Source: Alphaproteobacteria bacterium (GTDB lineage Bacteria > Pseudomonadota > Alphaproteobacteria > Rs-D84). Taken from it: a stretch of 55,648 nt of DNA. The position numbers and the translations under genes were made by a program. Under the pieces are notes generated by a model that was not told the origin of the DNA, made no database searches, and saw nothing but the letters and a program-made list of their open reading frames with translations. The number at the start of each line of letters is the position of its first letter. The first letter of the stretch is position 1. This document shows, one piece after another, positions 24,817 through 55,648 of the stretch. The stretch spans positions 1 to 55,648 of the forward strand of contig WQXN01000005.1 of NCBI GenBank assembly GCA_009784815.1, given 5' to 3'.

Positions 24817-25449
24817 ATGGAAAACATTGAAATATTGAAAGAAATAATACGGTCTAATGTCTTTATGGGGACCGCCGCGTCGTTCGTCACGATCGTGGGA
24901 GCGCTTTGGGGAATCGGGGCATGGGCGCAAAGGAGGGGTGAAAAGAAGCGCGGTGAAGAACAAAAGAAGCGCGATGAAGAACAAAAGAAGCGCGATGAAG
25001 AACAAAAGAAGCGCGATGATAAAATATTTAACAAAATAGATCAGGTCAGCAATGATGTCAAGGTTCTTGCCCAAAAAGTCGACAATAACCGGGACGAGGC
25101 TAAAAATAGAGACGACGCCCTGGCGAATCAGATCGGCGCGCTTAGAAACGATTTCGATAAAAAGTTCACCGGGCTTGAAAATAAGTTCGGCACGCTTGAA
25201 GCAGAAGTAACAGAGATTAAGAAATCCCTGCCCGAACATAGAACATGTTATGATCTTCAACTTTTGGCCAAGCAGGTTGCATCTAATATTACTTCGCATA
25301 ATAATCTTACCGGAGTAGTCAATACCATGCAAATGGAAATAACGAAAGGCATGACTGAAGAGGAATTTAAAGAATATGAAAGAAAAATGAATGAAAGCGT
25401 AAGGGCAGTTCATAAGGCAATGGATCCAAGAAACGCCGGTAAACCGTAA
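24817..25449 (+). CDS. Membrane-anchored coiled-coil protein with in-frame tandem repeat
   Basis: A 210-residue protein with one N-terminal transmembrane helix (about residues 17-37), then a charged coiled coil to about residue 150. The heptad EEQKKRD is repeated about four times (residues about 44-72), encoded by a 21-base DNA repeat. The C-terminal part is acidic and helical. It resembles other bacterial coiled-coil linkers between membrane and cytoplasm, but no function is assigned. It is convergent with another membrane protein, 30 bases apart. Confidence 0.75.
   Translation: MENIEILKEIIRSNVFMGTAASFVTIVGALWGIGAWAQRRGEKKRGEEQKKRDEEQKKRDEEQKKRDDKIFNKIDQVSNDVKVLAQKVDNNRDEAKNRDDALANQIGALRNDFDKKFTGLENKFGTLEAEVTEIKKSLPEHRTCYDLQLLAKQVASNITSHNNLTGVVNTMQMEITKGMTEEEFKEYERKMNESVRAVHKAMDPRNAGKP
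24941..25024 (+). repeat. Tandem 21-base in-frame repeat, four copies
   Basis: The unit is close to AAAAGAAGCGCGATGAAGAA plus C. Copies 2 and 3 are identical, copy 1 differs by one base, and copy 4 diverges at its end. Copy-number change would lengthen the coiled coil by one heptad without a frameshift. Confidence 0.9.
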
Positions 25450-27036: not shown

Positions 27037-27686
27037 TGAAAAAATATTACATACTTTTATTGGCTTTGATTTTTGCGCCGCTTTGCGCGGACGCCGCCGT
27101 GATCGGCGCGCGTAACGCCGCTCAGAGACCGGTTATCGCAACTCCTCAGCGTTCGGCGGTTACGGCGCGCGCCGTGTCATTAGGCGGTCATATAAACACT
27201 AAAACCGGAGGGACGGGCGCGCCAGTAAGATTGACGCCGCCCACCGGCCAAGGCGGCGGAGTTTCAGGCCCAGGGGTAGCCGCTTTGGAAGCGCGCGTAG
27301 ACAGTCTTGAGGCGCAGATATTGGATTTCTTGGATAATCACACCGGCGGTTCGCCCATGCCCGCGGACGTTTACACGATCTCGGAAGTGGACGGTCTATT
27401 GGACGGCAAACAGGACGTTTTGCCGGCGGGCGGATTCTGGGGGCAGGTTCTTATGCGCGGCAGCGGCGACGAGTTGGTATGGACTACGCCCGACAGCGGA
27501 GGAGATATATGGATTCACGGAAACACTATTCTTGGAAATAATTTGGGATGGATTTCCGCAGCGACCGGGCTGACCAACCACCAAGTCGCCGGCATGCTTG
27601 CGGGGACCAGCGTAGTTACTACCTCTGGAAATTACAACATAACCGGAATTTTAAACGTTCCTACTCCTCTGCTACCGTTGCCATGA
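27036..27686 (+). CDS. Exported protein of unknown function
   Basis: A 216-residue product with a signal peptide (1 to about 20, ending ADA). A Gly/Pro/Thr-rich low-complexity stretch precedes a short coiled coil (about residues 87-100: VAALEARVDSLEAQI) and a beta-rich C-terminal part. No family is recognised; the coil-then-beta order recalls trimeric fibre or tail-spike stalks. It begins within the stop of the beta-barrel gene and ends with ATGA overlapping the phosphatase start. Confidence 0.75.
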   Translation: MKKYYILLLALIFAPLCADAAVIGARNAAQRPVIATPQRSAVTARAVSLGGHINTKTGGTGAPVRLTPPTGQGGGVSGPGVAALEARVDSLEAQILDFLDNHTGGSPMPADVYTISEVDGLLDGKQDVLPAGGFWGQVLMRGSGDELVWTTPDSGGDIWIHGNTILGNNLGWISAATGLTNHQVAGMLAGTSVVTTSGNYNITGILNVPTPLLPLP

Positions 27687-28825
27687 AAAAGTATTTTGCA
27701 TCAATATTAGTTGCCGTTGCGATAATTTTGCCGCCGGGCATTCGCGCAAGCGGGCAGCTGGCAAATGTCGAGTATGTCCACCTGGCGATAGAACAAGCCA
27801 GCGGAATATCAATACCTTGGCATCCGGCGGTTTCCTCGAAACAAGTCGCCAATTTAGAATATCTGCTTAGCGTCATCGATATGGCTAATTTGGAAGCCGG
27901 CAAATTGACCCAGTACAGATTTCACACCTCGTCGATGAAGCAGGCGGTTAATACCACAGCCGTACATATGGCTATAGACAGCCTGCTTGCGGCCGATCCT
28001 GAAAATCCAAGAACTCCCGGAAGCGTGATACTCATGATAGGCGACGGCATGGGCATAAACCATGTGAACTGCTCGGGCGGATATATTTCGACCTTGCCTG
28101 TTTCGGCTTGGGTTTCGACTGATCCGGCAGACTGCACGCAATGGTGGTGCATAACCGACTCGGCCGCGGCCACCACCGCTTATTCATGCGGCATAAAAAC
28201 AAACAACAACTTCCTTGCTATGAACCCATCCAAAATTCCTTGCGAAACGGTGGCCCAGCGGGCGGCGCGGGCGGGATACAGATCGGTCATAGCATCAAAC
28301 GATTCATTGACCGGAGCCACGCCGGCCGCGTTCTTCGCGCATACCACAAGGCACGAGCCCGAGGTTATATTAGAATGGCTTGCCTTGGCGCCGCCCATGA
28401 TAACAGTGGGCAGCTTGGTAAGTCCGGCAGCTTATACAGAGCAGCTGATCAGCCAATACAATTCGGGCGAGGGGGAAAACGGCCTAATAAACGGCAAGCC
28501 GTTCTTTTGGATGATCGAGGAGGCCGCGATAGACTGGACTTCGCACTACAACGATTTACCGGCCATGTTGGCCCGTATGGACGACTTTAATGACGCGGTT
28601 CAGGCAGCCGTGGCCTTCGTCGGGCAAAATCCCGAAATAACTCTTATCATAGCCGGCGACCACGAAACCGGCGGCCTTACCGAAAACTGCGTGTTCACGG
28701 ATTTGGGCCACACGGGCGTCGATGTTCCGCTTTACGCTTTTGGCGAGCATGCAGCGCTTTTCACCGGAGGAGTAATACCAAACGACGAAGTGGGCCGCCG
28801 TATCCGCCGCATAATATTCCCTTGA
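27683..28825 (+). CDS. Alkaline phosphatase (PhoA-type), exported
   Basis: A 380-residue periplasmic or surface phosphomonoesterase. The signal peptide is about 1-22. The metal and nucleophile motifs are present: LMIGDGMG (D121), ITDSAAATTAY (Ser160), IEEAAIDWTSHYND, GDHETGG and HTGVDVPLYAFG. Residues 26-100 form an extra N-terminal region with three similar helical blocks (ANVEYVHLAIEQ, ANLEYLLSVID, VNTTAVHMAID). ATG 27683 is chosen because it overlaps the upstream stop as ATGA and gives a proper signal peptide. The final codons overlap the -35 box of the next promoter. Confidence 0.92.
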   Translation: MKKYFASILVAVAIILPPGIRASGQLANVEYVHLAIEQASGISIPWHPAVSSKQVANLEYLLSVIDMANLEAGKLTQYRFHTSSMKQAVNTTAVHMAIDSLLAADPENPRTPGSVILMIGDGMGINHVNCSGGYISTLPVSAWVSTDPADCTQWWCITDSAAATTAYSCGIKTNNNFLAMNPSKIPCETVAQRAARAGYRSVIASNDSLTGATPAAFFAHTTRHEPEVILEWLALAPPMITVGSLVSPAAYTEQLISQYNSGEGENGLINGKPFFWMIEEAAIDWTSHYNDLPAMLARMDDFNDAVQAAVAFVGQNPEITLIIAGDHETGGLTENCVFTDLGHTGVDVPLYAFGEHAALFTGGVIPNDEVGRRIRRIIFP

Positions 28826-28851
28826 AAACCGTCGGCGGGGGGGGGTATAGT
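28822..28851 (+). promoter_or_regulatory. Promoter with G9 tract in the spacer, probable phase-variable promoter
   Basis: -35 TTGAAA (28822-28827), 18-base spacer that ends in nine G (28837-28845), -10 TATAGT (28846-28851). The ATG of the next gene is at 28859, the predicted +1. Losing one G would give the optimal 17-base spacing, so tract length should tune or switch transcription. Confidence 0.7.
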
Positions 28852-28858
28852 AGCGGGC

Positions 28859-29824
28859 ATGAGCGCCAATGAATATATTTTAAATGAATTAAATCAGCTT
28901 AAAAAGCCGTTTGGTTTAGCCGTTCCGAAAACCGACTCCGAGATGGAGGATGAAATAGTCCGCCTGATCATGTCCCAAAAATTCCGCAACAACGCCGCCA
29001 ATGACGAAACCAAGGCGCATGTTAGGGAAGCGGTGCGACGTAGCGTATCGCAAAAAGCTCCGATAAATTTTGTCTGGCCCGGGAACTACTGGAAGCTGTG
29101 GAGGCTCGACGAAGCTCCGGAAGCGGATTTCGCCGAGTTGTTCGCATTTATGTATTTTACCGAATATCTAAAGCGTATTTGCGAAATATACAAACCCGGA
29201 GTTTGGTTCGATTTCTTCAGCGACGATTTGATCATTACAAAACTCAATAATTATAAGCGGCCGGATATCGAAAAACATGAAGCTTCCGTACGTCGCATAA
29301 TCGAATTTTTACGACCGTACCAGCCGGACAATCTTAAGTTCACAACGACGCCCGTTCTCAGCCAGTTCAAAAACGAGGGCGATTTTTGGCAGGCCGTGGA
29401 CAGAAACTTGGAAAAGATAAAACAAGGGCCGCCGCGCGTTATTACCGACCGAGAGAGAAGCGCTATGAACCTAAACGTGCGCCTTTTGCCAGGGCAGATC
29501 GACGATCCGCTGTGGCGTGACAAGGTAATACATCTTCATGACGCCTATCTTATCGCAAAGGCCGAACCCAAGTACCACAAAAACAATCCGGATAAAATAG
29601 GACTGTTCGCAAACGCATTACCCGGATTCATAGGAATCGGGGTAACCAAGCTGTCCGTCATAAGGCTTGGAGTCGGAGCAGGTGTTTTGGTAAGGAAAGG
29701 GGATAGTTTCGGAATGACCGTAATGTCAAAGAACCAAATCGATAACGCCAAGTTCGAATGGCAGCCGGTAAATCTGCCCGGCCTTGCCGGAAAAAACTTT
29801 TCAAAAATAAGAGTGATCGCGTGA
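28859..29824 (+). CDS. Unknown cytoplasmic protein under the G9 promoter
   Basis: A 321-residue soluble protein with no signal peptide. The N-terminal half is helical; a central stretch reads INFVWPGNYWKLWRLDEAPE, then IYKPGVWFDFFSDDLII and, after a helix, IEFLRPYQPDNLKF. This wording faintly recalls the DIT1/PvcA-type isocyanide synthase family (PGA-type loop followed by an SD motif), but the resemblance is too weak to name it. The C-terminal part is a beta domain. Translation starts at the predicted mRNA 5' end. Its last bases overlap the metallo-hydrolase start as GTGA, so the two are coupled. Confidence 0.75.
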   Translation: MSANEYILNELNQLKKPFGLAVPKTDSEMEDEIVRLIMSQKFRNNAANDETKAHVREAVRRSVSQKAPINFVWPGNYWKLWRLDEAPEADFAELFAFMYFTEYLKRICEIYKPGVWFDFFSDDLIITKLNNYKRPDIEKHEASVRRIIEFLRPYQPDNLKFTTTPVLSQFKNEGDFWQAVDRNLEKIKQGPPRVITDRERSAMNLNVRLLPGQIDDPLWRDKVIHLHDAYLIAKAEPKYHKNNPDKIGLFANALPGFIGIGVTKLSVIRLGVGAGVLVRKGDSFGMTVMSKNQIDNAKFEWQPVNLPGLAGKNFSKIRVIA

Positions 29825-30497
29825 AAATAAAAGTCATCGGATCGGATTCGGCGTTCGAAGGATTGAATTCCAGCCTGTTTTTCACGGAAGACAGGGGGGG
29901 GTAGAACGCGGAGTTTTGGTCGACTGCGGATTCACGGTGTTTCCGGAACTAACCCGATTGTCTTTGCGCGAAAAAGTGGACGTAGTTTTAATTTCGCACT
30001 TGCATCCCGATCATACAGGCTCACTCTGCACTCTGGCCATATGGTCTATTATATTTAGAAAGAAAAAAATATTCGTCGGAGGCGAAGACGCAGCCGAACT
30101 TTTCATAGTTCAGGGAATCCGCCCGAACGATTTCGAACCCTTGCCCTCGGACGATCCATTGAACATCAAGACTATTAGGACCGCGCATATTCCCGGAAGC
30201 GGCCACAACAAGGCTCTTTTCATCGCGGATACAATTTTATGGTCCGGAGATACGAACGAGAGCATTCTGGACAGCGATTACGCGCGCCAAGCCAAGATCA
30301 TTTTTCACGAAGCAGTCATGGAACCGCGCACCGGAGCCCATACCGGCATAGAAATATTAAACCAGGCCGCGCCCGATATAAAAGCCAAAACCTGGCTGAT
30401 ACACATACCAGAAAAAGAAAGGGCTGAAATCGAAAGGCTGGCGGCTGAAATGGGCTTTGCCGGAGTATGTTATAACGGCCAGGAAATAGAATTGTAA
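29821..30497 (+). CDS. MBL-fold metallo-hydrolase, out of frame at a G8 tract (phase-variable, OFF as read)
   Basis: The frame opens at GTG 29821, overlapping the upstream stop, and encodes MKIKVIGSDSAF followed by EGLNSSLFFTED, the usual first strand and turn of a metallo-beta-lactamase fold. It then meets eight G (29894-29901) and an immediate TAG. The rest lies in another frame and continues GVLVDCGFTVF with the metal motif SHLHPDHTG, then the later ligands in GSGHN, SGDTN and LIHIPE. One extra G joins the two parts into a seamless 225-residue protein through DRGGVERGVLVDCG. Two lost G would also do. Substrate unknown; family members act on phosphodiesters or nucleotides. Confidence 0.85.
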
Positions 30498-38441: not shown

Positions 38442-40145
38442 ATGAAGAAAAAACCAGCAAAAAACACAAAGAATCCCAAAAACAACAAAGTCATAGCGAA
38501 CGCGTTCAAAGTCGAATATAAAAGACAGCTTAGGCTTTTCGGGATATTGGCGGCGGTCGCCGTTACGGTCACGGCGCTTGCGATCGGGGTTAGAAAGTAT
38601 CCTTCAAGCATCAATATCGATATACCGGACATAATCGGCATAATCGAAAAAGGCGAACGCAAGGGAAGCCAGTGGGGCGAATTCCTGGCAGGCATTCACG
38701 CCATGAACGTGGGCGACTTCGAAGCCATGCGCAGGTTTTCCGAAGCCAAAGCCGAAACCGAATCCAAAGTAGTGCGCGAGGCGGTGATGAGGGCGGCATT
38801 CATGTCGGGCGGAGATTTATCCGGGATCGGCACAACCGGAGAGCGCACTTTGGTGCCGCTTGCGATAGAATTCGCTGCCGCCGCGCAGCGCGACGATTGG
38901 GCAGCCGCATGGAAAAGCGTCGGGAAACACGACATATTCATACTGACTCCGGCCAGGATAGTCGCCGCAACCGCTACAGGCCGCCCGGACGAAGCGCAGA
39001 AAATTGCGCGCGCGCAAAAGAATTTTCCTGATCTTCGGAACTTTAACATAGGCTTCGCCTATGCAATCGCCGGGTATCCGCGCAGCGCACGCAAATACTT
39101 CCGCATGCTGCCCGACGAATTCCTGAATCTGAACGACTTCCTATTCATACGCGCGTTCTATCTAAGGCACAATATGCAGGCCGACGCCGACGCCTTGACC
39201 GAGCGGTTCCGATCAATCCCACGCGGCAGCTTCATCGCCGACATCCGGGAGCTTCCCGACTGGTCGAATTACAACACCCGCGCCAAGCAGGCCAGATACG
39301 GTCTGACTTCGATCGTTGCGCAGCATCCGTTCATGCTTGGCACGGGCTGGGGTTTGGTCGCGCTCCGCACCGCTGAAAATTCGGCAAGCGGAAACGCCGA
39401 CGACGCGCTGAATTATTATTTGGGCGTGAATTTTTCAGAGCAGGGACGCGGAAAATATTTTTTCAACAAGATTCCAGACAGCAGCCCGTTCAAACCGTTC
39501 GTCATGATTCACCTTAGCGACTCGTCCATAAAATCAATGGAGAAAGTCGTCAGGAAATTTCCTTCGTTCGTGCCTGCGACGGCCAGGCTTGCGCTGATGA
39601 AGGCCGCGGACAACGATCTACGCGGGGCGCTGGCCGCAGCGGACCGCGCGCTTGACAACGCCGTCGACGCGTCGCCCGCCACCACCGCCTATCTATTGAA
39701 GCTGCGCGCGCACGTGAACTTTTTGTCGGGCGAACTGCACGCCGCCCTTAACGATATAAACGAAGCGTCCATACTGGCGCCGAAAGACCGCGGCCTGATG
39801 GCCGATAAAGTTCGAATATGGTCGGCGATGGGAACAAATCTGGACGAGGCGTACGCACTGGCCGGCGCGCTTATCCGCAGTAATCCGCTTGCGTCCGATT
39901 ATTGGGACGCTATGGGAGTAGTGCTAACCGCCCGGGGCGAGATCGAGGAAGCGTTGCGCATACTTGAACGCGTTCAGCGCGCCGAACCCGACGTATCCAG
40001 CTATGCAGAAAACTTCGGCGACGCGCTGGCGGCGGACGGGCAGATTAAACGCGCCAAAGAGGCTTACCGCCGCGCGATTTCGCTGGCAAGCGACGGTCAG
40101 ATCAACGCGCGCGCGGTCCGCAAAAAAATGAACAAGTTGAAATAA
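38442..40145 (+). CDS. Membrane-anchored TPR-repeat protein
   Basis: A 567-residue protein with a basic N terminus, one transmembrane helix (about residues 28-50) and a long helical periplasmic part. Tetratricopeptide-like repeats are clearest in the last 200 residues (for example ALRILERVQRAEPDVSSYAE and DALAADGQIKRAKEAYRRAI). It probably mediates protein contacts in the envelope. ATG 38442 is used because GGAG precedes it. Its stop overlaps the ABC exporter ATG by one base (TAATG), pointing to coupling. Confidence 0.85.
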   Translation: MKKKPAKNTKNPKNNKVIANAFKVEYKRQLRLFGILAAVAVTVTALAIGVRKYPSSINIDIPDIIGIIEKGERKGSQWGEFLAGIHAMNVGDFEAMRRFSEAKAETESKVVREAVMRAAFMSGGDLSGIGTTGERTLVPLAIEFAAAAQRDDWAAAWKSVGKHDIFILTPARIVAATATGRPDEAQKIARAQKNFPDLRNFNIGFAYAIAGYPRSARKYFRMLPDEFLNLNDFLFIRAFYLRHNMQADADALTERFRSIPRGSFIADIRELPDWSNYNTRAKQARYGLTSIVAQHPFMLGTGWGLVALRTAENSASGNADDALNYYLGVNFSEQGRGKYFFNKIPDSSPFKPFVMIHLSDSSIKSMEKVVRKFPSFVPATARLALMKAADNDLRGALAAADRALDNAVDASPATTAYLLKLRAHVNFLSGELHAALNDINEASILAPKDRGLMADKVRIWSAMGTNLDEAYALAGALIRSNPLASDYWDAMGVVLTARGEIEEALRILERVQRAEPDVSSYAENFGDALAADGQIKRAKEAYRRAISLASDGQINARAVRKKMNKLK

Positions 40146-41983
40146 TGAGAAATACTACCCCCCCCCCGCCGAATAAAGCCGCGCCCAAGCGCGAGGAGAG
40201 CATGACGCTTCCCAAGACAATCTGGGGATTCTGGTTCAGGTACGGATTTAAATTCATACCGCTGACCATGCTTGCGTGGGCGGTTATGCTTGCCGCGTAC
40301 GAGGTCGCCAACACGGTCATGTGGCCGCTGATCAACAAATGGTTCATAGCGATATTCGAAAACGGCATACCCGAAGGAATGTCATGGACTTCATACGCCT
40401 TGCCCACTATAGTTTTTCTTGGACTGCTTGGCCTGTCGATAGACTTGGCGTATTTAATAAGATATTTAATTCAAGCGCGGCTATGGCCCAGGGCGCAAAA
40501 ACATCTTAATGAAAAAATCTACGATTACCTTTATCTGCAGTCCAGTCAATTCTTCCACAACACTTTGGTCGGCAAGATAAATTCGCAGGCGAACTATATC
40601 TCGGCCGGGATGGAGAAAGTGATGAAAGGCGCGATCGTATTCTTGATGGGCATGATCGCAATAGGCATAAACCTGACACTGGTCATATCGTTAAATTGGA
40701 AGATAGCCGCGCTGCTGCTGCTCCTTTTCGCGTTTCATCTGATATGGAGTTTATGGCGCGTCGGCCCCCTTAGCAGGGCGTGGGAGAAATCATCCAACCA
40801 GCAAAGCCTGGTCAACGGAAAACTAACCGACAGCCTGTCCAACTTTTCCATCGTCAGGCTTTTCTCGGCAAGCAGGCGCGAAAAGAGGTACGTGTCCGAG
40901 GCAAGGCAGGAACTGACCCGCGCGCAGATACATTCCAACAACGCCTTGAATCTGTTCTGGGCCGTGCCTTCTATGCTGAACACCGCTTCGTTCACGATTC
41001 TGATGCTGCTGTTGGCGGCGATGTTTTTCAACGGCACATTGACGCTGGCCGAAGCCGTGTTCACGCAAACCGTATTCTGGCTTAATTCCGAAGCGGTGGA
41101 CAGGATCGTATGGACTCTGCCCGATTTTCTCGAGGCGCGCAGCTCGGCCAAGCAGGCTTATGCGGAACTTAACAAACCCATAACCATATTGGACAAACCG
41201 GGCGCTAAAATATTAAAAGCGAAACGCGGAAAGATCGAAATCAAAAACGTGTCGTTCAAATACGGCCGCGCCAAGGCCGGAAAACGCAAAGACGTTATAA
41301 CCGATTTTTCATTAACCATCAAACCCGGAGAAAAGGTCGGAATAGTCGGAAGAAGCGGAGCGGGAAAAACGACGCTGGTAAATCTGATCCTGCGTTTGTA
41401 CGAACCGACGCGCGGCAAAATCATGATAGACGGGCAGGACATATCATTTGTCACTCAGGATTCGCTTCACGACGCGATCGCGTTCATTCCGCAGGACGCG
41501 ACCATGTTCAACCGCAAGCTGTGCGAAAATATAGGATACGGAAAGGAATGCGCCATGCCCGACGAGATAACCGACGCCGCGATAAGCGCATCCGCACATA
41601 AATTCATAATGGATGCGCCCGACAAGTTCGAAACTTACGTCGGCGACCGCGGCATAAAATTATCCGGCGGCCAGCGTCAGCGAATCGCCATCGCGCGCGC
41701 ATTTCTTAAGGACGCCCCGATCCTTGTGTTGGACGAAGCCACAAGCGCCCTGGATTCCGAGACCGAAGTGGCGGTGCAAAAAGCCATCGCAAAACTGTCG
41801 GGAGGACGCACGACGATCGCAATCGCGCACCGCTTGTCTACGCTTCGTAATATGGACCGCATCATAGTTATGGAGAACGGCCGTATAGCCGAGCAGGGCC
41901 CGCACAACAAACTGTTAAAAAAGAAAGACGGAATTTACGCGAAACTGTGGAAAATGCAGTCCGGAGGATTTATTAAAGACTGA
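40145..41983 (+). CDS. ABC exporter (MsbA/half-transporter type) with C10 tract in its first codons
   Basis: A 612-residue exporter with fused membrane and ATPase domains. About six transmembrane segments lie in residues 35-320. The ATPase domain shows GRSGAGKTTLVNLILRLYEP, Q-loop IPQDATMF, signature LSGGQRQRIAIARA and Walker B ILVLDEATSALDSE. Ten C (40158-40167) encode Pro residues 5-8 (TTPPPPNK); the frame is open as read. A change of one base would put the first ATG out of frame. A second start at ATG 40202 behind GAGGAG could still give a protein shorter by 19 residues. The cargo is unknown. Confidence 0.9.
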   Translation: MRNTTPPPPNKAAPKREESMTLPKTIWGFWFRYGFKFIPLTMLAWAVMLAAYEVANTVMWPLINKWFIAIFENGIPEGMSWTSYALPTIVFLGLLGLSIDLAYLIRYLIQARLWPRAQKHLNEKIYDYLYLQSSQFFHNTLVGKINSQANYISAGMEKVMKGAIVFLMGMIAIGINLTLVISLNWKIAALLLLLFAFHLIWSLWRVGPLSRAWEKSSNQQSLVNGKLTDSLSNFSIVRLFSASRREKRYVSEARQELTRAQIHSNNALNLFWAVPSMLNTASFTILMLLLAAMFFNGTLTLAEAVFTQTVFWLNSEAVDRIVWTLPDFLEARSSAKQAYAELNKPITILDKPGAKILKAKRGKIEIKNVSFKYGRAKAGKRKDVITDFSLTIKPGEKVGIVGRSGAGKTTLVNLILRLYEPTRGKIMIDGQDISFVTQDSLHDAIAFIPQDATMFNRKLCENIGYGKECAMPDEITDAAISASAHKFIMDAPDKFETYVGDRGIKLSGGQRQRIAIARAFLKDAPILVLDEATSALDSETEVAVQKAIAKLSGGRTTIAIAHRLSTLRNMDRIIVMENGRIAEQGPHNKLLKKKDGIYAKLWKMQSGGFIKD

Positions 41984-45365: not shown

Positions 45366-46270
45366 ATGGCACTTGAAAAAACGAACGGGGGGGGGTAGAA
45401 CAAAGCCTAGATAAACCCCTTGAAGTAACAATACTTGGAAAACCCGACACAATAATCCAATTCGCTTCAACTGAAGACTTTATAAAAGAGTGGCAGAAAG
45501 GCAAAATGGGCACGCCCGTTCTTACTGGCGTAAAAATCAGCGGCGACGAGGCCAGGGTGGGTTTCAATGTGGAAAATTCTCCAAGCCTAAGCATCGTGCT
45601 TAACGACTGTATACTTGAAGATGTTGAATTCTATACCAACATTTCGATTCAGGCAAACAACTGCTCTATAAAAAGGATATATGTCGAAGGATCAAAGCTA
45701 GCTCTTTCCGGTGAAAACTTAAATGTCACAAGGCTGAACATTAATGAAGGCTCGTTAAAGCTTGACCTTAAAAACAGCAATATCATAGGCACCGTGCAGC
45801 TTTACAAAGTCCATGTATCGGGAAGTATGAAGGGCGGCAAGTTCGAATTTAAAAACGGCGACCGCACATATCTTGGACAGCGCAACGCGCTTATAATGGA
45901 AGACGTGGATTTCGGCAAAAAAGATTATGATCCCGATTACTTCACCCATGAAAACATGACGCTTGTGAGTCCCAAGATGAATCCGTCTGTTCTTGCCAAA
46001 GTGAAAAATATCAGGCCGGAATCGGTCAAGGACAGCGCGATGAGTCAAAAGGACAAGGACGCCGCGTATTCCAAGGCTGCCGACAGAGTTAAGGCAGAGC
46101 TTCTGGATACAGGAAAGAAGTTCTTCACAAATACCGGAAAGCCCGCGGCGGAAGCCGAACGGCTTGCCGGCGAAATTTACGACAAGCTTGCCAAAAAAGG
46201 AAGCGTCGATATGGAGAACTATTCGACCGCGCTGTTGGAACGGCTTATGGGCAAAGAGTTTGGATTATAA
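45366..46270 (+). CDS. Beta-helix-like protein, out of frame at a G9 tract (phase-variable, OFF as read)
   Basis: ATG 45366 follows a strong AAGGAG site, so it is the real start. It encodes MALEKTNGGG and then hits TAG immediately after nine G (45387-45395). The main frame, from 45395 to the stop at 46270, has no good start of its own until ATG 45506. One extra G gives one 301-residue protein (MALEKTNGGGVEQSLDKPLE and onward). Residues about 65-165 alternate short strands (for example LSIVLNDCILEDVEF, NNCSIKRIYVEG, NLNVTRLNINEG) as in pentapeptide-like beta-helices. The C-terminal 100 residues are helical. No signal peptide. A terminator follows. Confidence 0.85.
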
Positions 46271-46357: not shown

Positions 46358-46393
46358 CGACCAAATATGTTCCTAACTGGGAGGAAAAGGAGT

Positions 46394-49300
46394 ATGAGAA
46401 AGCTCATACTTTTGATGTTTTTTGGGTTAATCGCGCCGCTTGTATCAATCGCCGCGACGGGTTTCGACGCACTTATACCGTCAAACTCGCTTAGATTCAA
46501 GACGGACGCCGGCGCGTATTGGTACATTCAATCCTGCTCGGTCGAAGACAATATGTTCTGGAACGGAAGAATATGCCAAAGCTGCGCTTGGAACGAAGAA
46601 CTTGACTTTAACTACAACAACCCGTCGGACCTTCACTTCAACGCCCTTACCAATCCTTGCAGATGCGCGGGCGGCAGAAGTTTTGTGCGCAACAACGCCA
46701 CGGGCGAGTGCATATGCGACGAGGTGAACGGCTTCGTGTTTCTACCGGGTCCCAACGTCTGCATTCAAGGATGCCAGCCGGGAAGATTTTTCGACAGCGG
46801 AAATTTAGCCAATCCTTGCACCTTGTGCCCGGTCAGAACTTATCAGCCCGAAGCGGCGTTCCTTGGAGCAAGTTGCAACAACTGCCCTTCGAACACGGAC
46901 AACGGTCAGGGACTTCCCTGGACCGTCGAAAGCGCGACTTCGACTTCCGACACGCCCGCCACCGGGGCGGCCGCGCGCGCGCAGTGCAGGAAAAGAGTGG
47001 CGTTTGAAGTCACCGCCACAATAGGCGGATCGACGCGCGTGATAGGCCGCGGATACAGAACTTGCAATCACAACGGTTCCTCCACAAATACGGACGGGGC
47101 GTATAACCAGAACTGCACCTATTCCGTAACTTCATGCGGAGCGGGCCGCAGCGTATGGAGCAGCTTTGTAACCGCGACGACACCTTACGTGCTTCGCGTG
47201 ACTCCGCGCACTTTGGGATCGGCCACGCGCGTTGACGCAACGCTTAACACGGCCAGATATTTGGAAGCCGTCAACGCCGCTTGCGAGCCATGCGCGGCGG
47301 GACGCGTCCAGGCGAACGACAGTCACACGGTATCTCCGTGCCCGGCCTGTTTGGAAGGACAGTTCCAATCCGCCACCGGACAAACGACGTGCGACCAATG
47401 CCGCGGAGGGTTTGGACCATCGGACACCGGATTCGCTAATTCAAGCATAAATACTGCCACCACTTCAGGAGCGTTCTCGTCAAGCACGGGCGCCACAAGC
47501 TGCAGTTCCTGTCCGTCTAATGCAAACAACGCAGGATCGTGGTTTCCATGGACAATCACGACTGCTGCGCCGACCTCCAACAACGCAACGGCCGGGGCGA
47601 ACGCGGCGACTTTATGCAGAAAGAGGGTCGCGCACACGTTCACTTTGACCAACGGCACCCAGATAGGCACGGGTTTCAGGATTTGCAACGCAACCGGCAC
47701 TACGAACAATGACACGGTATACACGACCAACTGCACATACACAGTCGAGTCCTGTATGCTTGGAGTAAATTACGAGCGGATACCAACAGTAGGATTCCCA
47801 TATAATCATCCTACAGCGGGTGCGCATACCGCCAATTCGACATTGCAGCAGACAGCCGTGCTTGCCGCTTGCAGGCCTTGTTCGGACAGGGGCGCCAATT
47901 GGTTCAGTTCAAGCACTCAGGAAACCTGCACCGAGTGCGTCGAAAACGAATTCAGATATTGGAACGGAAGCCAGTGTATAACCTGTCCTTCCGGAGAATT
48001 AGTGAACGCGTCAAGATCAGGCTGCGTCGCATGCCCAGCGGTCGGAACGCCCGAACCGTCACGTCCGTTCTTTTTCTGGAACACAAGAACCAACAGCTGT
48101 CTGCCTTGCCAGTCCGCCGCCAACAACCGCCTGCTGAACAATATCAACGGAGTGCGCGTCGGCGCGACGTCGTGCTCGTGTCTTGACGGGTTCGCGTTAA
48201 GTGAAGTGACCATACCGCCAACCGCCACGGTTTTAACCGGCACTGCCGCACCCGCGAACGCCCTTGGCAGCGTGGGCAACTGGTTCATAAATACAACGAA
48301 CTGGGCGATCTTTGAAAAAACCGGAGCCGCCGTATGGACTTCGCGCGGACAGACGACCTGCGAAATGTCGGCGTTGACTTGTCCGTCCGCTTCATTCGCC
48401 GTGGGCGACGGATTCAGCGAAGGCATGCCTATCACGGCCTGTATGACCTGTATCGCCACGGGTACTCCGACTTGCATGCCCGGCACGGGGGCGGGGCAGT
48501 GTCCGGCCTGCGCCGTGTGTCCTATGGTCAACACTCCGACCGGGAACTTCACGCCTATCGCCATGGGCACTCCCACCTCGACTCAGGCGCTTGCGAACGT
48601 AACGATAGGCTGGCCTTCGACCATAACGGTCAGCATCGGTGCGGCAACCACCGCGGGAATAGGGGCTACGGCAGTCAGCGAGTGCAGAAAACAAGTTCCG
48701 TTTGAAACCAGCCTTGGCGGAAATTTTGCACATAACGCGAATATGCCCACGGCCACTTCAACTCCGGACTCTCTTTGCTTTGGAGTCATGACCTGTTCGG
48801 CGGCTGGTACCACCAACAACTTGCAGTCTTACAGAAACTCGTGTTCGAACTTCACGTATTTGGGGCGCAAACCGGGCGCAAGACTTACCAACACGGCCGG
48901 CACTATAAGGTGCGAAGTTTGTCCGCACGGATCTTATTCCACAAATTGGGTCTTGGCAAGCACATGGGCAGGAGGTCATTTGCCCATATCCACCGATCTT
49001 AACAATCCGTTTTCATGCACCAACTGCGTAATAGGAACTTCGCAATCAAACTCGGACGGTATGTTGCGTGATAGCATAAACACTTGCTTTTCATGCCGCG
49101 GAGGATTCAATTCGACCGGCAGTACACCACCGACTTCGGCTACAACAAGCGGAACCTTCGGCGGAGCTGAAGGTAGATCCGACAACACCGCCGGAGTTTG
49201 CACATCATGTCCAATCAATACTCAGGCCACTCAAATAACCGGAGTTCCTACAACAGGTTTCCCTTACACCGTCAGCGCAGTTAACGCAACTACCGGCGCG

Positions 49301-52300
49301 GAAACCTTCTTCCCTCAGAACCCAACAGCCGGATCCGTCGGAGCCAGCGCGTCATGGCAATGCCGCAAACGCATACCGTTTGAAGTTCGCGCGGCAGTCC
49401 CGGACGGCACGTTCAATACAGGAGCAAGCGGCAATGGAATGGGCAATACAACACTTCGCTCGATCGGCCGTGGATATAGAACCTGCAGCTATAATACCGG
49501 AACGGACGAGTTCGGCTATGGAAGCGATTGCTTTATAGTAGTCACAGCATGCGGATCAGGCCGCCGCGCAGTGGCAGGACGTCTTGGTGTAATTTCTACC
49601 GCAAGCGGAACTGTAAACACAAATATTATAGACGCCACACAAGCCGCCAATGCTCATCAAGCCGCCGTAAACTGGGCTTGTGAACCTTGCCCGGGTGGAG
49701 CGGGAACAAGCGCACAAGTTCAAAACAGCGAAAACCACACATCGACTTTATGCACGGCCTGCACGGCGGCGCAGTTCGCGGCGGCCGGAGCTTCCGCATG
49801 CACAGTCTGCCCCGGATCCGGCTGGCGCTGGACTGGCCCGACGCCGATAGGAAGCCTTCAATCGCCCACGGTCGCAGGATGCTACGAGCCGTTATCATTC
49901 TGTAATTCTTGCCCCTCGGGTCAATCCATGGGCGCTAACTGCGCCGGCTGCAACCAAGTTAACTGCGTAGCTGGTCAGTGCCTTGACAACATCACCTGCC
50001 GCGGTTGCGCCGTCAACACTTTCCGCACGGAAGCCAGCCATTCGCTGACCTGCCCAAGCGCTACAAATTTCGCTTGCAACAACTGTCCGGCGTTTACCGA
50101 TAATCCGGCTCTTGCCGTTACGACTTCGACGTTCACCGGATTCACGACAAGCAACTGGGGAACCGCGTGGCGCACGCCGAACACGTTCCAGGTTTCCTTT
50201 GCCAACAACACCATAGCTAATGATATAGGGCTTACAACATCGACCGGAGCATCAGGTTGTAGAAAGAACGTTCCATGGCAGACGGTTCCGACGAACACCG
50301 CGGGAAGCACCGGCGGCTGCGTCGGATCCCAGATTTGCAGCTATTCCGGGACCGGAACCGCTTGGACTAATTATAACGCCAACTGCGGAAACCAGGTCAT
50401 ATTGGCGGTAGGCCCCGGGTTTAGGGCGACCTCCACCACGGCCTGCGCGGCTTGTGCGGCGGGAACCATGTCGGAAAACACTTGGAACACGACCGTGCCT
50501 TCATCAGCGGCCCGGTGTCATGACTGCGCGCTTGGAACATATCAGACCACGACCGGGGCGACAAGCTGCCTTAACTGTCCGGCCATAACCATAGCGACGG
50601 AATCAATCAGCACCGGCACAGGCGGAAATCCTGCCAGCATTAGCGTCGCACTTAACAACGCGTCATCGGTATCTCCGTTCAACGCGCTTTCCACATGCCG
50701 CAAGGAAAGGGCGCACCTTGAAACCGCAACCGGCTGTTACGGCGCAAGGCTTTGCCTTGGTGCGACGGCCACGACCAACGCATTGGCTTCATATCCTTCG
50801 GCGAACTGCACCGGCGCGATCCGCTGGCAGGGAGCCGGACACGGACGTAGATTCGTACCGGCGCAATCAGGCGGCACGGCGGCTCAGGCGTGCGTGGCGT
50901 GCGCTGCCGGAACATTCTCGGGCAGCTGGTCTACTTCCGACGCTTGCGAATCCTGCCAGTCCGGAGTAATCGGGGGAGGGACTTCCACAACCTCGGGAAC
51001 ATTCAGCGCGGCGCAGGCGACTTCCTGCACTGCCTGCCCGTCGAACAACAATAACAGCAACGCCGTATGCCCCGTCTTTGGAGCCACCACCCAGCCGTGC
51101 GGATTCCCATGGACCGTTGCGAACACCACCACTTACGCGCTGGCCATTCCCGAAGCTTGCGTGTCCAGCTGCATGGGATCCTGCATCGGCAGCTGCATGC
51201 CTCCGTGCATAGGCGGCAATCCGGCAAACAGCGGTCCTTGCAATGATTCATGCTCGGCGACCTGCACTCCGCGGTGCAACGCGCAATGCACTTCGATCAC
51301 GGGACAGGACGCCATAGTCGGAGCCAGCTCGCATCTTAGGTGCAGAAAGAACGTGCCGTTCACAGGAACGAACGGAAACGGATACAGGACTTGCACGGCC
51401 AACGCCGCGACCGGCACCGACACCGTATATGTAAGCAACTGTTTCTACACAGTGACATCATGCGTGGCCGGAATGATAGCAAGCAATCCGCTTCCGCTGA
51501 TTTCAAGCGCATCCGGCACCACTAACGTCACCAACTCGACCACCATACAGAACAACGCCGTCAATTCAATATGCGTCGGCTGCGAATCCGGATCCTTCAG
51601 CGCGGGCAACGACGCCTCGACCACATGCACCTTGTGTCCGTCCTATTCGTCGTCGTCCATAACTATAAGCAACACCGATTTGGGGGGCGCAACAACAAAC
51701 GAAACGTTCGGCAATTTCGGACTGCCTTGGACGACTTCCGGCACAGGATTCACCGCCGCGCAGGCGATCACGATCGGCGATGCGCCGGCCGGCGGCGCGA
51801 CCTCGCACACCAGGTGCCGCAAGCGCATTCCTTTCGAAGTCCGCGCCCAAGTTCCAAGCGGCGGATTTAATACGGCGGCAAGTCCGCTTGGCAACGGCCT
51901 TGCCCAAACTACGAGTCGCACGATCGGACGCGGATACAGAACTTGCAGCGCAAGCGCGGCAACCGGATCGGACGACATATACACCGCCAACTGCATATAC
52001 ACCGTGACTTCGTGCGGTGCGGGCCGCCGCGTCAGATCGGGATTCCTGACCGCGACTTCACCCTACGTTCTAAGGCAGTCGACCTCAACCGTTTCGGCCA
52101 CCAATTTGGCCGCGGCCATACGCATGGATGCCACCGCAACCGCTACGCAGATGACGGACAGATTCTTGGAAGCCGTTAATCTTGCGTGCGAACCGTGTCC
52201 GGGCGGAACCGGCACCGCGGCTCAGGCCGGAACGCTTAACGACACCACTTCGACAAGCTGCAATACAACTTGCGCGGCCACCGCATTCGCCTCGAACGGA

Positions 52301-55300
52301 GCGTCATGGTGCACGACATGCCCAAGCGGCGCATGGAGATGGACCGGCGCTACACCGATAACCACGCAAAACGGAGTCACGGGGTGCACTACGGCGAACT
52401 CGTTCTGCAACACCTGCCCGGCGGGAGAGATGTTAAGCGCAGACTGCGCCGGATGCCGACAGATAATGTGCCCGGCGGGACAGGTAGTAAGCGGAACAAG
52501 CTGCGTAGCCTGCACGGGAAGCAACTTTATGGCGGCCGGAACGCTTAACGGAGTAACCGCAACCGGCGCGGCCTGCAACAGCCTGTGCCACGCGAACACC
52601 ACCTGCACGGCTTGCCCTGCGTTCACCGATAATCCGGCGCTTAACGTCCTGACGGCCACTCATACCGGATTCACAACCACCAACTGGGGGAATGATTGGA
52701 CCACTTCGTCGACCAAAACATTTGCAGTGTCGCAGCAAGCAAATTCAAGCTTTACGGCGAGCACGGGATGCAGAAAGCGCGTGCCTTATCAAACGGTTCC
52801 GACAAGCACCGCGGGCAACGCCGGCGGCTGCGTGGGCGAGCAGATATGCAATTACTCGGGAACGGGAACCGCTTGGTCCAATTACAGCAACAGCTGCGCC
52901 AACCGCGTGATCTTGGCTACGGCTCCCGGATTTAGGGCAACTAATGCGACAACTTGCGAAGCTTGTCCGGCCGGAACCGCTTCGCCCAACACTTGGGTGT
53001 CTACAATACCTTCGGCAAGCGGACGCTGCACCGCGTGCGGGGACGGTTTGTGGCAGAATCTTACGGGGGCCACATCGTGCCAGGATTGCCCTCAGCGCGC
53101 GACCACTTCCCAGACGTTGGCATCGGCCGGCAATACAAGCATAACCATCGCGGCCGCCACTTCGTCGGGATCGCGCAATGCGGTCACCACCTGCAGCAAG
53201 CAAGTCGGGCACGTCGATACTAACTGCTATGGCAGGCGGGCATGCTCGGCCGCGTCAACCGCCACTTCGGCAAGCGGATTAGACGTCTACAACGTAAGCT
53301 GCGGAGCGGCGACATGGCTTGGATCGGGCCCCGGGCGCAGATTCATATCGGCTCAATCCGGAAGCACGGCGGCGAACGCCTGCCCGCAATGCTTGGCGGG
53401 AACATTTAAAAATTCTTGGTCAAGCGCGGATTGCGAAGCCTGCGCAATTGGAACCTCGCAGCCCGCCGCCGGACAGACAAGCTGCGTTGGATGCGGCGAC
53501 GGATTCTGGCAAAACCAAACTGGACAAGCCAATTGTCAGGAATGCCCGGTCCGGACCACTAATTCCGAAAACTTTACTTCCGGAGGTAATAACGTTAGCG
53601 TATCTCTTAACAACGCGACTTCCGTATCGCCGCGCAATGCGGTCGGCAACTGCCGCAAAGAGCGCGCGCATTCGACGACTACATGCTATGGCGCAAGGAC
53701 TTGCGCCGCAACCTCTGCGACCAACGCACTGGCTTCTTATACAGACTGCACCGGCGGGGCGATCCGCTGGCAGGGAGCGGCACCGGGACATAGGTTTGTT
53801 CCCGGCTCGGCCAACGGCACTGAAGGACAAGCTTGCATTGCTTGTACTGCGGGAAATTGGAAGCAAGGATTTAATGACGACACAGAATGCACCGCCTGCC
53901 AACCCGGACGAGTACAGCCAAACCCCGGACAGTCTAGTTGCGTGGAATGCGGGAACGGATTATGGCAGAACGCCTCGGGACAAACCGCTTGCAACGACTG
54001 TCCGGCGCGCACGACTACAAGTCAAACCTTGGCAACGGCCGGCAACGTAAGCATAACTTTAGCCAACGCGGATTCGGCATCGCCACGCAACGCAGTCACC
54101 ACCTGCAGCAAGCAGATCGGAACGGTGGACACCGGCGCGGGCTGTTATGGAAGACGCGTATGCTCGGCCGTATCTACGGCGAACGCCACCACCGCGTTAG
54201 CGACAGCATACACGCAAAGCTGCGGCACGATAACGTGGCTTGGGTCGGGTCCGGGTCGGAGATTCGTAAGCGGACAATCGACTGCGGCGGCTTCGTGCGT
54301 TTCTTGCGCCGGCGGAACTTTCTCGACCGGCTGGGGCACGGAAACGGCCTGCACCAACTGCACCGCCGGAACCGCAAGCAACGACACGGGCCGGACTTCG
54401 GCTTGCCCCAACTGCTCTTCGGGAACTTTCCAGGCCAGCGCGGGTCAAACCAGCTGTCCGGACTGCCCGGCGCGCACTACAAACTCGGATTCTGTAAGCA
54501 CCGGCGGAAGCCCGGCGACGGTCAGCGTATCGCTTAACAACGCGACTTCCGTATCTCCGTTCAACGCGGTCGGCAACTGCCGCAAGGAACGCGGACATAT
54601 AGACACGGCGGCAGGTTGTTACGGGGCGCGCGAATGCTCGGGCGCGACTACGACGACGAACGCGCTTGCCACATATCCTACCTGCACCGGCGCGATCCGC
54701 TGGCAGGGCGCAGGCCCCGGAAGACAGTTTGTTTCGGCGCAATCGGGCGGCACGGCGGCGCAGGCTTGCACTCAGTGCGCGGCCGGAAGATTTTCGGGCA
54801 CTTGGTCCACCGCAACAAGCTGCGACCAATGCGCCGCCGGTTCATTTAGCGCAGCCGGGGCGTCTAGCTGCTCGTCCTGCCGGGGAGGCGTAGCCGGAGG
54901 AGGCGCGGCGGGGACTTCGGGAACATATCATGCAAGCCAAGGACAATCCAGCTGTACGTCTTGCCCATCGAACAACCAGTCCACCCAAGTGACGGGCGTG
55001 CCGACTACAGGATTCCCTTACACGGTAAGCGCGGTCAACGCGTTGACCGGGGCAGAGACATTGTTCCCGGCCGCGGCAACCGCTGGCTCGGTCGGCGCGA
55101 CCGTCGTCGGACGCTGCCGCAAGCGCATACCTTTCACAGTCGCGCTTCCGAATCCGGCTTCCGCACAAACGCTGATCGTCGGACGCGGATACAGGGCCTG
55201 CAACGCCGCGGGCACCGCCGACAACGATTCGACTTATTCGGTAGACTGTCATTACTATGTGACTTCATGCGGAGCGGGAAGACGCGCAATAGTCGCGTTG

Positions 55301-55648
55301 TCATCAACCAATCCCTATCGCGCAGGAGTCGGCGGCTGGGTGACAACCACCGATACGCATGGAAATAATAACAGGCTTGTAGAGATAGTAAATGCGGCGT
55401 GTCCGATGACCATCTGCGGTCGCGCGGAATCGCGGACAGATCACACCAACGCGGGAGCGACTACGACAAACACCGCATGCAACACTGGAACACTTATAGC
55501 CGCTGAGGGCTCGTCGGCCTGCACCAATTGCGCGAGCCGTCCCCGTCTTTTGGGTTGGGAGGCTGCCGTTGCGAATACAGATCGTTGTTCTTGCAATTAT
55601 TCCATGTGCGCCGCAAGCGGCAACAGGGCCAACGACAGCGGATTCACC
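46394..55648 (+). CDS. Giant secreted Cys/Thr/Asn-rich modular protein (3' end beyond window)
   Basis: One frame stays open from ATG 46394 to the right edge: 3,085 codons with no stop, so the C terminus is missing. The N terminus is a signal peptide (about 1-22, MRKLILLMFFGLIAPLVSIA). The mature protein is built of Cys modules of the type C-x2-C-P-x-G-T, resembling the ephrin-receptor-like/GCC2-GCC3 and growth-factor-receptor Cys patterns. Larger modules recur: CRKR-x-PFEV to GRGYRTC to TVTSCGAGR (about 46985, 47615, 49361, 51341, 51815, 55115), CRKER-x-H to CYGAR to GAIRWQGAGPGRRFV (50696, 53651, 54578), CSKQ to CYGRR to TWLGSGPGRRF (53192, 54104), and CRKNVPWQ or CRKRVPYQ to TAGxxGGCVG (50258, 52769). 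Lys is scarce; Thr, Ser, Asn, Ala and Gly dominate. A surface adhesin, shield or predation/host-contact fibre is plausible, not shown. Long overlapping frames on both strands here are its shadows. Confidence 0.9.
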   Translation, partial: MRKLILLMFFGLIAPLVSIAATGFDALIPSNSLRFKTDAGAYWYIQSCSVEDNMFWNGRICQSCAWNEELDFNYNNPSDLHFNALTNPCRCAGGRSFVRNNATGECICDEVNGFVFLPGPNVCIQGCQPGRFFDSGNLANPCTLCPVRTYQPEAAFLGASCNNCPSNTDNGQGLPWTVESATSTSDTPATGAAARAQCRKRVAFEVTATIGGSTRVIGRGYRTCNHNGSSTNTDGAYNQNCTYSVTSCGAGRSVWSSFVTATTPYVLRVTPRTLGSATRVDATLNTARYLEAVNAACEPCAAGRVQANDSHTVSPCPACLEGQFQSATGQTTCDQCRGGFGPSDTGFANSSINTATTSGAFSSSTGATSCSSCPSNANNAGSWFPWTITTAAPTSNNATAGANAATLCRKRVAHTFTLTNGTQIGTGFRICNATGTTNNDTVYTTNCTYTVESCMLGVNYERIPTVGFPYNHPTAGAHTANSTLQQTAVLAACRPCSDRGANWFSSSTQETCTECVENEFRYWNGSQCITCPSGELVNASRSGCVACPAVGTPEPSRPFFFWNTRTNSCLPCQSAANNRLLNNINGVRVGATSCSCLDGFALSEVTIPPTATVLTGTAAPANALGSVGNWFINTTNWAIFEKTGAAVWTSRGQTTCEMSALTCPSASFAVGDGFSEGMPITACMTCIATGTPTCMPGTGAGQCPACAVCPMVNTPTGNFTPIAMGTPTSTQALANVTIGWPSTITVSIGAATTAGIGATAVSECRKQVPFETSLGGNFAHNANMPTATSTPDSLCFGVMTCSAAGTTNNLQSYRNSCSNFTYLGRKPGARLTNTAGTIRCEVCPHGSYSTNWVLASTWAGGHLPISTDLNNPFSCTNCVIGTSQSNSDGMLRDSINTCFSCRGGFNSTGSTPPTSATTSGTFGGAEGRSDNTAGVCTSCPINTQATQITGVPTTGFPYTVSAVNATTGAETFFPQNPTAGSVGASASWQCRKRIPFEVRAAVPDGTFNTGASGNGMGNTTLRSIGRGYRTCSYNTGTDEFGYGSDCFIVVTACGSGRRAVAGRLGVISTASGTVNTNIIDATQAANAHQAAVNWACEPCPGGAGTSAQVQNSENHTSTLCTACTAAQFAAAGASACTVCPGSGWRWTGPTPIGSLQSPTVAGCYEPLSFCNSCPSGQSMGANCAGCNQVNCVAGQCLDNITCRGCAVNTFRTEASHSLTCPSATNFACNNCPAFTDNPALAVTTSTFTGFTTSNWGTAWRTPNTFQVSFANNTIANDIGLTTSTGASGCRKNVPWQTVPTNTAGSTGGCVGSQICSYSGTGTAWTNYNANCGNQVILAVGPGFRATSTTACAACAAGTMSENTWNTTVPSSAARCHDCALGTYQTTTGATSCLNCPAITIATESISTGTGGNPASISVALNNASSVSPFNALSTCRKERAHLETATGCYGARLCLGATATTNALASYPSANCTGAIRWQGAGHGRRFVPAQSGGTAAQACVACAAGTFSGSWSTSDACESCQSGVIGGGTSTTSGTFSAAQATSCTACPSNNNNSNAVCPVFGATTQPCGFPWTVANTTTYALAIPEACVSSCMGSCIGSCMPPCIGGNPANSGPCNDSCSATCTPRCNAQCTSITGQDAIVGASSHLRCRKNVPFTGTNGNGYRTCTANAATGTDTVYVSNCFYTVTSCVAGMIASNPLPLISSASGTTNVTNSTTIQNNAVNSICVGCESGSFSAGNDASTTCTLCPSYSSSSITISNTDLGGATTNETFGNFGLPWTTSGTGFTAAQAITIGDAPAGGATSHTRCRKRIPFEVRAQVPSGGFNTAASPLGNGLAQTTSRTIGRGYRTCSASAATGSDDIYTANCIYTVTSCGAGRRVRSGFLTATSPYVLRQSTSTVSATNLAAAIRMDATATATQMTDRFLEAVNLACEPCPGGTGTAAQAGTLNDTTSTSCNTTCAATAFASNGASWCTTCPSGAWRWTGATPITTQNGVTGCTTANSFCNTCPAGEMLSADCAGCRQIMCPAGQVVSGTSCVACTGSNFMAAGTLNGVTATGAACNSLCHANTTCTACPAFTDNPALNVLTATHTGFTTTNWGNDWTTSSTKTFAVSQQANSSFTASTGCRKRVPYQTVPTSTAGNAGGCVGEQICNYSGTGTAWSNYSNSCANRVILATAPGFRATNATTCEACPAGTASPNTWVSTIPSASGRCTACGDGLWQNLTGATSCQDCPQRATTSQTLASAGNTSITIAAATSSGSRNAVTTCSKQVGHVDTNCYGRRACSAASTATSASGLDVYNVSCGAATWLGSGPGRRFISAQSGSTAANACPQCLAGTFKNSWSSADCEACAIGTSQPAAGQTSCVGCGDGFWQNQTGQANCQECPVRTTNSENFTSGGNNVSVSLNNATSVSPRNAVGNCRKERAHSTTTCYGARTCAATSATNALASYTDCTGGAIRWQGAAPGHRFVPGSANGTEGQACIACTAGNWKQGFNDDTECTACQPGRVQPNPGQSSCVECGNGLWQNASGQTACNDCPARTTTSQTLATAGNVSITLANADSASPRNAVTTCSKQIGTVDTGAGCYGRRVCSAVSTANATTALATAYTQSCGTITWLGSGPGRRFVSGQSTAAASCVSCAGGTFSTGWGTETACTNCTAGTASNDTGRTSACPNCSSGTFQASAGQTSCPDCPARTTNSDSVSTGGSPATVSVSLNNATSVSPFNAVGNCRKERGHIDTAAGCYGARECSGATTTTNALATYPTCTGAIRWQGAGPGRQFVSAQSGGTAAQACTQCAAGRFSGTWSTATSCDQCAAGSFSAAGASSCSSCRGGVAGGGAAGTSGTYHASQGQSSCTSCPSNNQSTQVTGVPTTGFPYTVSAVNALTGAETLFPAAATAGSVGATVVGRCRKRIPFTVALPNPASAQTLIVGRGYRACNAAGTADNDSTYSVDCHYYVTSCGAGRRAIVALSSTNPYRAGVGGWVTTTDTHGNNNRLVEIVNAACPMTICGRAESRTDHTNAGATTTNTACNTGTLIAAEGSSACTNCASRPRLLGWEAAVANTDRCSCNYSMCAASGNRANDSGFT

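Follow-up and report, generated by a model that had tools for sequence, protein, structure and literature searches.

A poly-G tract within a predicted promoter spacer of a small alphaproteobacterial genome: probably one of about fifty contingency loci

A few groups of pathogens are known for phase variation through the slippage of homopolymers. The porA, fetA and opc genes of Neisseria meningitidis have a run of G (or C) within or at the spacer between the -35 and -10 boxes, and one-base changes in it alter both spacing and transcription (PMC2791445, PMC7864442); the original prediction had cited such spacer switches as established in Neisseria, and the literature agrees (PMC2791445, PMC3899988). 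In the spirochaete Treponema pallidum, poly-G likewise lies between the -35 and -10 boxes of tp0126 and of tpr genes; tp0126 (ompW-like) performs best at a spacing of 17 bases, and the tprL tracts are mostly G9 (PMC7864442). Tracts of Campylobacter peak at 9 Gs (53%; PMC6321876), and 82% of them are found within reading frames, with 18–39 phase-variable genes per C. jejuni genome (PMC6321876, PMC4965091). A literature search, which reached subscription journals only in small part, found no paper linking poly-G tracts or phase variation to Rickettsiales, Holosporales or termite symbionts.

We analyzed a window of 55,648 nucleotides (contig WQXN01000005.1 of assembly GCA_009784815.1, positions 1 to 55,648), on the forward strand of which the promoter elements, the tracts, the genes that carry them and the phosphatase and P0001 genes are located. 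A direct reading of the letters bore out, base for base, the promoter anatomy that had been proposed for it. It consists of a -35 box TTGAAA (28822–28827, five of six positions as in TTGACA), which overlaps the TGA stop (28823–28825) of an alkaline phosphatase frame, an 18-base spacer (28828–28845) formed by ACCGTCGGC (28828–28836) and a G9 tract (28837–28845), the predicted slippage site, and a -10 box TATAGT (28846–28851, five of six positions as in TATAAT). The heptamer AGCGGGC separates the latter from the ATG at 28859 of a gene here termed P0001, and given that this ATG is only 7 bases past the -10 box, the P0001 mRNA is predicted to be leaderless. As in the neisserial genes, a homopolymeric tract thus lies between recognizable -35 and -10 boxes, with the difference that slippage is a prediction here. 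The accompanying arithmetic, by which G8 gives a spacer of 17 and G9 one of 18, is likewise correct, and one-base slips would by this count move the spacing to or from the optimum of 16–17. We predict that slipped-strand mispairing in living cells would add or remove one G, and that the G count would set promoter output through the spacer, with G9 (18 bases) weak or off, G8 (17) strong and G10 (19) off; these strengths are extrapolated from porA, fetA and tp0126 and from the local spacer preference described below. A tract interrupted as in GGGGAGGGG would be expected not to slip. A search for inverted repeats around the site found none.

P0001 (28859–29824) encodes 321 amino acids (aa), and its stop is overlapped by the GTG start of a gene for a metallo-beta-lactamase-fold hydrolase (29821–30497), whose nearest solved relative is Apyc1 (E 4.6e-11). 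The promoter had been proposed to drive both genes. For P0001 this stays our prediction, and the hydrolase would be reached by read-through; for the latter the promoter is not the whole account, because a G8 tract of its own (29894–29901, with TAG directly after it) puts it out of frame in the assembly, leaving 27 aa at the assembled G8 as opposed to 225 aa at G9. Given this second, frame-switching tract, the pair may represent two switches in series, wherein the hydrolase would be expressed only if the promoter is on and its own tract is in frame. In the assembled state P0001 and the hydrolase would both be weak or off.

The genome from which the window derives (828 kb in 12 contigs, 87% complete and MAG-like) was surveyed through genome searches and fetched stretches, the latter providing 455 kb for run-length statistics. 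We detected 51 tracts of G8 or more, namely 39 G9, 8 G8 and 4 G10 as assembled, where homopolymer lengths can be in error by one base; the tally additionally lists two G7 runs. In the 455 kb, G/C runs of lengths 6, 7, 8, 9 and 10 occur 12, 0, 2, 15 and 3 times, whereas for lengths 6, 7 and 8–10 a first-order Markov model predicts 79, 19 and 4 and a second-order model 34, 3 and 0. The 20 runs of 8–10, next to none of 7, are beyond chance, which places the focal tract far above chance in length, and A/T runs lack such a second peak. The promoter is not the lone case that it had been taken for, its anatomy standing as described: it is one of about 27 promoters of the same design, alongside more than 20 other tracts. 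The genome-wide occurrence, the peak at G9 and the presence of frame-disrupting tracts resemble C. jejuni, in which G8–G12 tracts switch the frames of glycosyltransferase, methyltransferase and restriction-modification genes. However, the Campylobacter tracts are mostly intragenic, whereas about half of those found here are promoter spacers, and their density is 51 over 0.83 Mb and, for the relative G036, 159 over about 1.1 Mb. The set as a whole would thus comprise roughly half spacer promoters of one layout, and for the remainder mostly intragenic frame switches.

In a typical poly-G promoter of this genome, TTGACA, in most cases with AAA directly after it, is separated from the G tract by a pre-tract that is mostly 9 and in some cases 6 or 10 bases long. 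TANNNT comes immediately behind the tract, as a rule with a Shine-Dalgarno sequence and an ATG 27–50 bases farther downstream. The focal site has the same geometry (9 + G9 = 18), but with a weaker -35 box and without a leader. Some 27 promoters with a common layout within a single genome, many of them on uncharacterized or metabolic genes, contrast with the isolated surface-protein loci of Neisseria. They also differ from the treponemal promoters, which do not share one stereotyped layout and among which the tprL tract overlaps the -10 box and does not set the spacing. Spacers of 15, 18 or 19 bases were found in 20 of 21 poly-G promoters of this genome and in 42 of 46 of G036, leaving 1 and 4, respectively, at 16–17. 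Among plain TTGACA promoters without poly-G, 17 of 24 and 29 of 48 have spacers of 16–17 within the range 15–19 (Fisher p 7.7e-6 for this genome and 9.6e-8 for G036, with a poly-G search pattern that ended at spacer 19 and a -10 rule looser than that for the plain set). Under an equal -10 rule in the fetched stretches, 9 of 9 poly-G promoters in this genome and 11 of 13 in G036 had spacers of 18–19 or 15. Since 18 is one G above the optimum and 15 one or two below it, single slips would have their largest effect at these lengths, and such off-optimum spacing is what is expected of switches, unlike constant promoters. In a further relative (G016), six promoters combine pre-tracts of 6, 8 and 9 bases with G8–G12 such that the totals are always 17 or 18, suggesting that what counts is the overall spacing. 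A correlation between pre-tract and tract length in a GTDB-wide sample was set aside, as the search pattern itself limited the spacer to 18.

The genome-wide set and the avoidance of the optimal spacer lend strong, if indirect, support to a phase-variable reading of these sequences. We regard the focal site as probably a sigma-70-type promoter in which, as in porA, a slippery G tract determines the spacing, and as belonging to a genome-wide set of about 50 poly-G contingency loci. If so, a little-known order of Alphaproteobacteria, with genomes of 0.7–1.1 Mb, would use phase variation on a larger scale and mainly through promoters, and the 27 or so near-identical spacer promoters (46 in a relative) would make the rule connecting spacer length to output directly testable.

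The distribution among relatives is uneven. Tracts of G8 or longer range from 0 to 159 per genome across 40 relatives, the maximum being in G036, where G9 makes up 74 of 91. A strict version of the promoter pattern occurs in 10 of the 40, with 0–46 copies per genome (46 in G036), and the same pattern read backwards yielded zero matches in all 40. Of 385 genomes sampled from the class, about 380 of them from outside the order, no more than 4 of the latter match, once each, against 1 for the reversed-pattern control, and the expectation that such loci are rare in Alphaproteobacteria is thereby upheld. Viral contigs gave one weakly related protein and two matches to the promoter pattern. Separately, the arrangement TTGACA-N-poly-G-TANNNT was seen, among the matches listed (L070–L181), in gut Clostridia, Bacilli, Spirochaetes (Treponema), Saccharibacteria and others.

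The gene dapB provides a case for comparison. It has a poly-G promoter in this genome and in G036, a member of a different family (verified start MKNNIIITGYGKMG), and a plain spacer in the congener G003 (TTGACA-16-TATAAT) and in G022 (17 bases). The presence and absence of the tract among relatives mark it as a replaceable spacer. The congeners G002 and G003 retain the layout with a nine-base pre-tract, combined with G9, G11 or G16 and TTGATT boxes, and across the clade it occurs with G8–G12 and G16, all comparisons being between species. As judged from these comparisons, the tracts have been gained and lost between related species.

These observations bear on the foremost alternative, that the promoters form a regulon in which G9 serves an invariant structural or regulatory role, for instance as the binding site of a factor or in adjusting melting, its length not varying in life. 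The tight length distribution of the tracts could reflect such a fixed element and counts against switching; the shares of G9 in this genome (39 of 51) and in G036, together with the constant pre-tract lengths, are what a fixed architecture would give. In the spacer-18 promoters of G036 the sequence TGTC(T/A)A, positioned just 3' of the -10 box, would also suit it, as would the metabolic genes, such as dapB, among the targets. Yet the layout is also seen with tracts of 8, 10, 11, 12 and 16 bases, the congener's dapB orthologue does without the tract, and half of the tracts are outside promoters, several of them breaking reading frames. We consider this alternative unlikely on balance.

The genes concerned can be read in both directions. 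Downstream of poly-G promoters lie dapB, a purN-like gene, genes for a histidine phosphatase and an RpiB-like protein, radical-SAM and GT2 genes and many genes without assigned function. The non-promoter tracts are mostly intragenic, several being close to the 5' end. They include in-frame tracts in genes for an Eco57I-type DNA methylase, a GT8, ABC and MFS transporters, thyX and tmk, and others in radical-SAM and methyltransferase genes. Frames are disrupted in the hydrolase gene, in a SET-domain gene and between two glycosyltransferase-2 ORFs that would join at G8. The frame-disrupted genes are of classic phase-variable kinds, which supports switching, whereas dapB, the purN-like gene, thyX and tmk look metabolic or essential and are odd targets for a random switch, which counts against it. 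Why enzymes such as DapB should be switched at random is a question raised by these findings.

A further alternative accepts the focal tract as real and takes the promoter match around it for chance, with P0001 being reached by transcription that starts upstream and includes the phosphatase. The phosphatase frame (27548–28825; Pfam Alk_phosphatase, E 1.2e-28), the true start of which is probably an ATG near 27683 ahead of the signal-peptide-like MKKYFASILVAVAIILPP, ends 33 bases before P0001, for which no Shine-Dalgarno sequence was found, and the TTGAAA box sits on its stop codon; P0001 may be co-transcribed with the phosphatase as well. A consensus promoter scan of 5 kb returned 8 promoter-like sites against 5.3 expected, and hence by itself provides no evidence for the focal site. 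On the other side stands the exact register, 9 + G9 = 18 followed by TATAGT, which the site shares with the other poly-G promoters of the genome. By our own arithmetic (19/4096 per register), about 1% of tracts should have a TTGACA with at most one mismatch at a 9- or 6-base register, and the TTGAAA/G9/TATAAT layout recurs, again leaderless, at a glycosyltransferase gene (L033). We accordingly hold a chance match to be improbable. That the tracts are artefacts, through homopolymer errors or G-rich reads in a MAG-like assembly of 12 contigs, is highly improbable, for although a G30 run at a contig end of G003 proves that such artefacts exist and exact lengths may still be off by one, the flanks are conserved at fixed distances, the tracts recur in independent genomes and are in no excess at contig ends, and the backward pattern is absent from the 40 relatives.

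Two features of the tracts concern their origin and surroundings. MutS (PF00488) was not found in this genome (87% complete) and is present in 34 of 40 genomes by the same search; its loss as a general cause of slippery tracts was rejected, as the tract-rich G036 and G038 have it. A dinucleotide TA is seen directly 3' of the G8–G10 runs in 45 of 51 cases (in the window at 28846, 29902, 40156 and 45396). Outside promoters it follows 18 of 23 tracts, as compared with 4–5% of G3–G6 runs. Behind a sense-coding tract, TAA or TAG terminates one of the reading frames at once, a rationale that does not extend to antisense tracts. The TA after non-promoter tracts thus falls outside what the promoter model explains and counts against the switch reading. 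A broader and rather doubtful proposal is that this order of small-genome, probably host-associated Alphaproteobacteria has a promoter-dominated phasome, with dozens of one-design promoters held at a deliberately suboptimal G9 spacing from which one slip switches them, acting on metabolic and uncharacterized genes. In this proposal the 'G9TA' word, including its copies outside promoters, would be kept by a common and previously undescribed mechanism, such as a dedicated factor or biased tract formation.

P0001 itself weakly resembles isonitrile synthases (PvcA/Dit1), its scores not reaching the family cut-off. Pfam DIT1_PvcA is sub-threshold in two of three family members (best E 0.0047), and PvcA-type isonitrile synthases are among the few PDB matches (E 0.4–0.7), making this relation a candidate function and a lead only. 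The structure predicted with two orthologues had a pLDDT of 43, an unusable model. Orthologues were detected in 2 of the 40 relatives (G006 and G036), other matches being weak. Both retain the N-terminal MSA and both lack the focal promoter tract; they have a C8 in the 5' part (G006) and a C9 in the 3' part (G036) of the gene.

Beyond the focal site, the window holds three tracts that the earlier description had not listed, namely the G8 at 29894, a C10 at 40158 and a G9 at 45387. The C10 (40158–40167) lies 13 nt past the start of an ABC transporter gene (ATPase and membrane domain; 40145–41983), which is in frame at the assembled length and open only at C10, with C9 or C11 leaving 19 or 10 aa. 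Its orthologue in G014 (L291, about position 1500) carries a slippery repeat of another kind, a long AC dinucleotide array, in the corresponding N-terminal part (MKAAENRRKLHTHTHTHTHTHTQ...), and the orthologues in G001 and G002 are repeat-free there. The G9 (45387–45395, with TAG directly after it) lies in a gene without assigned function (45366–46270), which gives 10 aa at the assembled length, 301 aa at G10 and 300 at G7. Like typical Campylobacter tracts, those at 29894 and 45387 are near the 5' end of their gene, which is on in a single frame.

Certain additional sequence elements were also noted. Stretches C1 and C2 of this genome contain promoters with interrupted tracts, for example TTGACAAAACTTCATGGGGGAGGTAGAAT (spacer 17) and TTGACAAATTGCAATGGGGGAGGGTAGACT (spacer 18), which are possibly locked former switches. 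The TGTC(T/A)A of the G036 spacer-18 promoters (L215–L246) is the reverse complement of the -35 core and is a possible operator; an interpretation of TTGACA...TGTCAA as a transposon end was not supported, as the flanks beyond the core, judged by eye, are not conserved. At L214, L215, L218, L224, L232–L235 and L246 of G036, the G tract precedes a short hairpin, as in G9-CGCCTTCGGCG-TAGCTATAAATC, and has a common upstream part, and these elements may constitute a second, non-promoter poly-G family. Finally, the window contains a near-perfect 21-base tandem repeat (24941–25019; 3.8 copies, 98%) within an ORF (24817–25449), the frame of which would be preserved if the repeat changed in length, and an open reading frame of at least 3094 aa (46367–55648) that continues beyond the window end.
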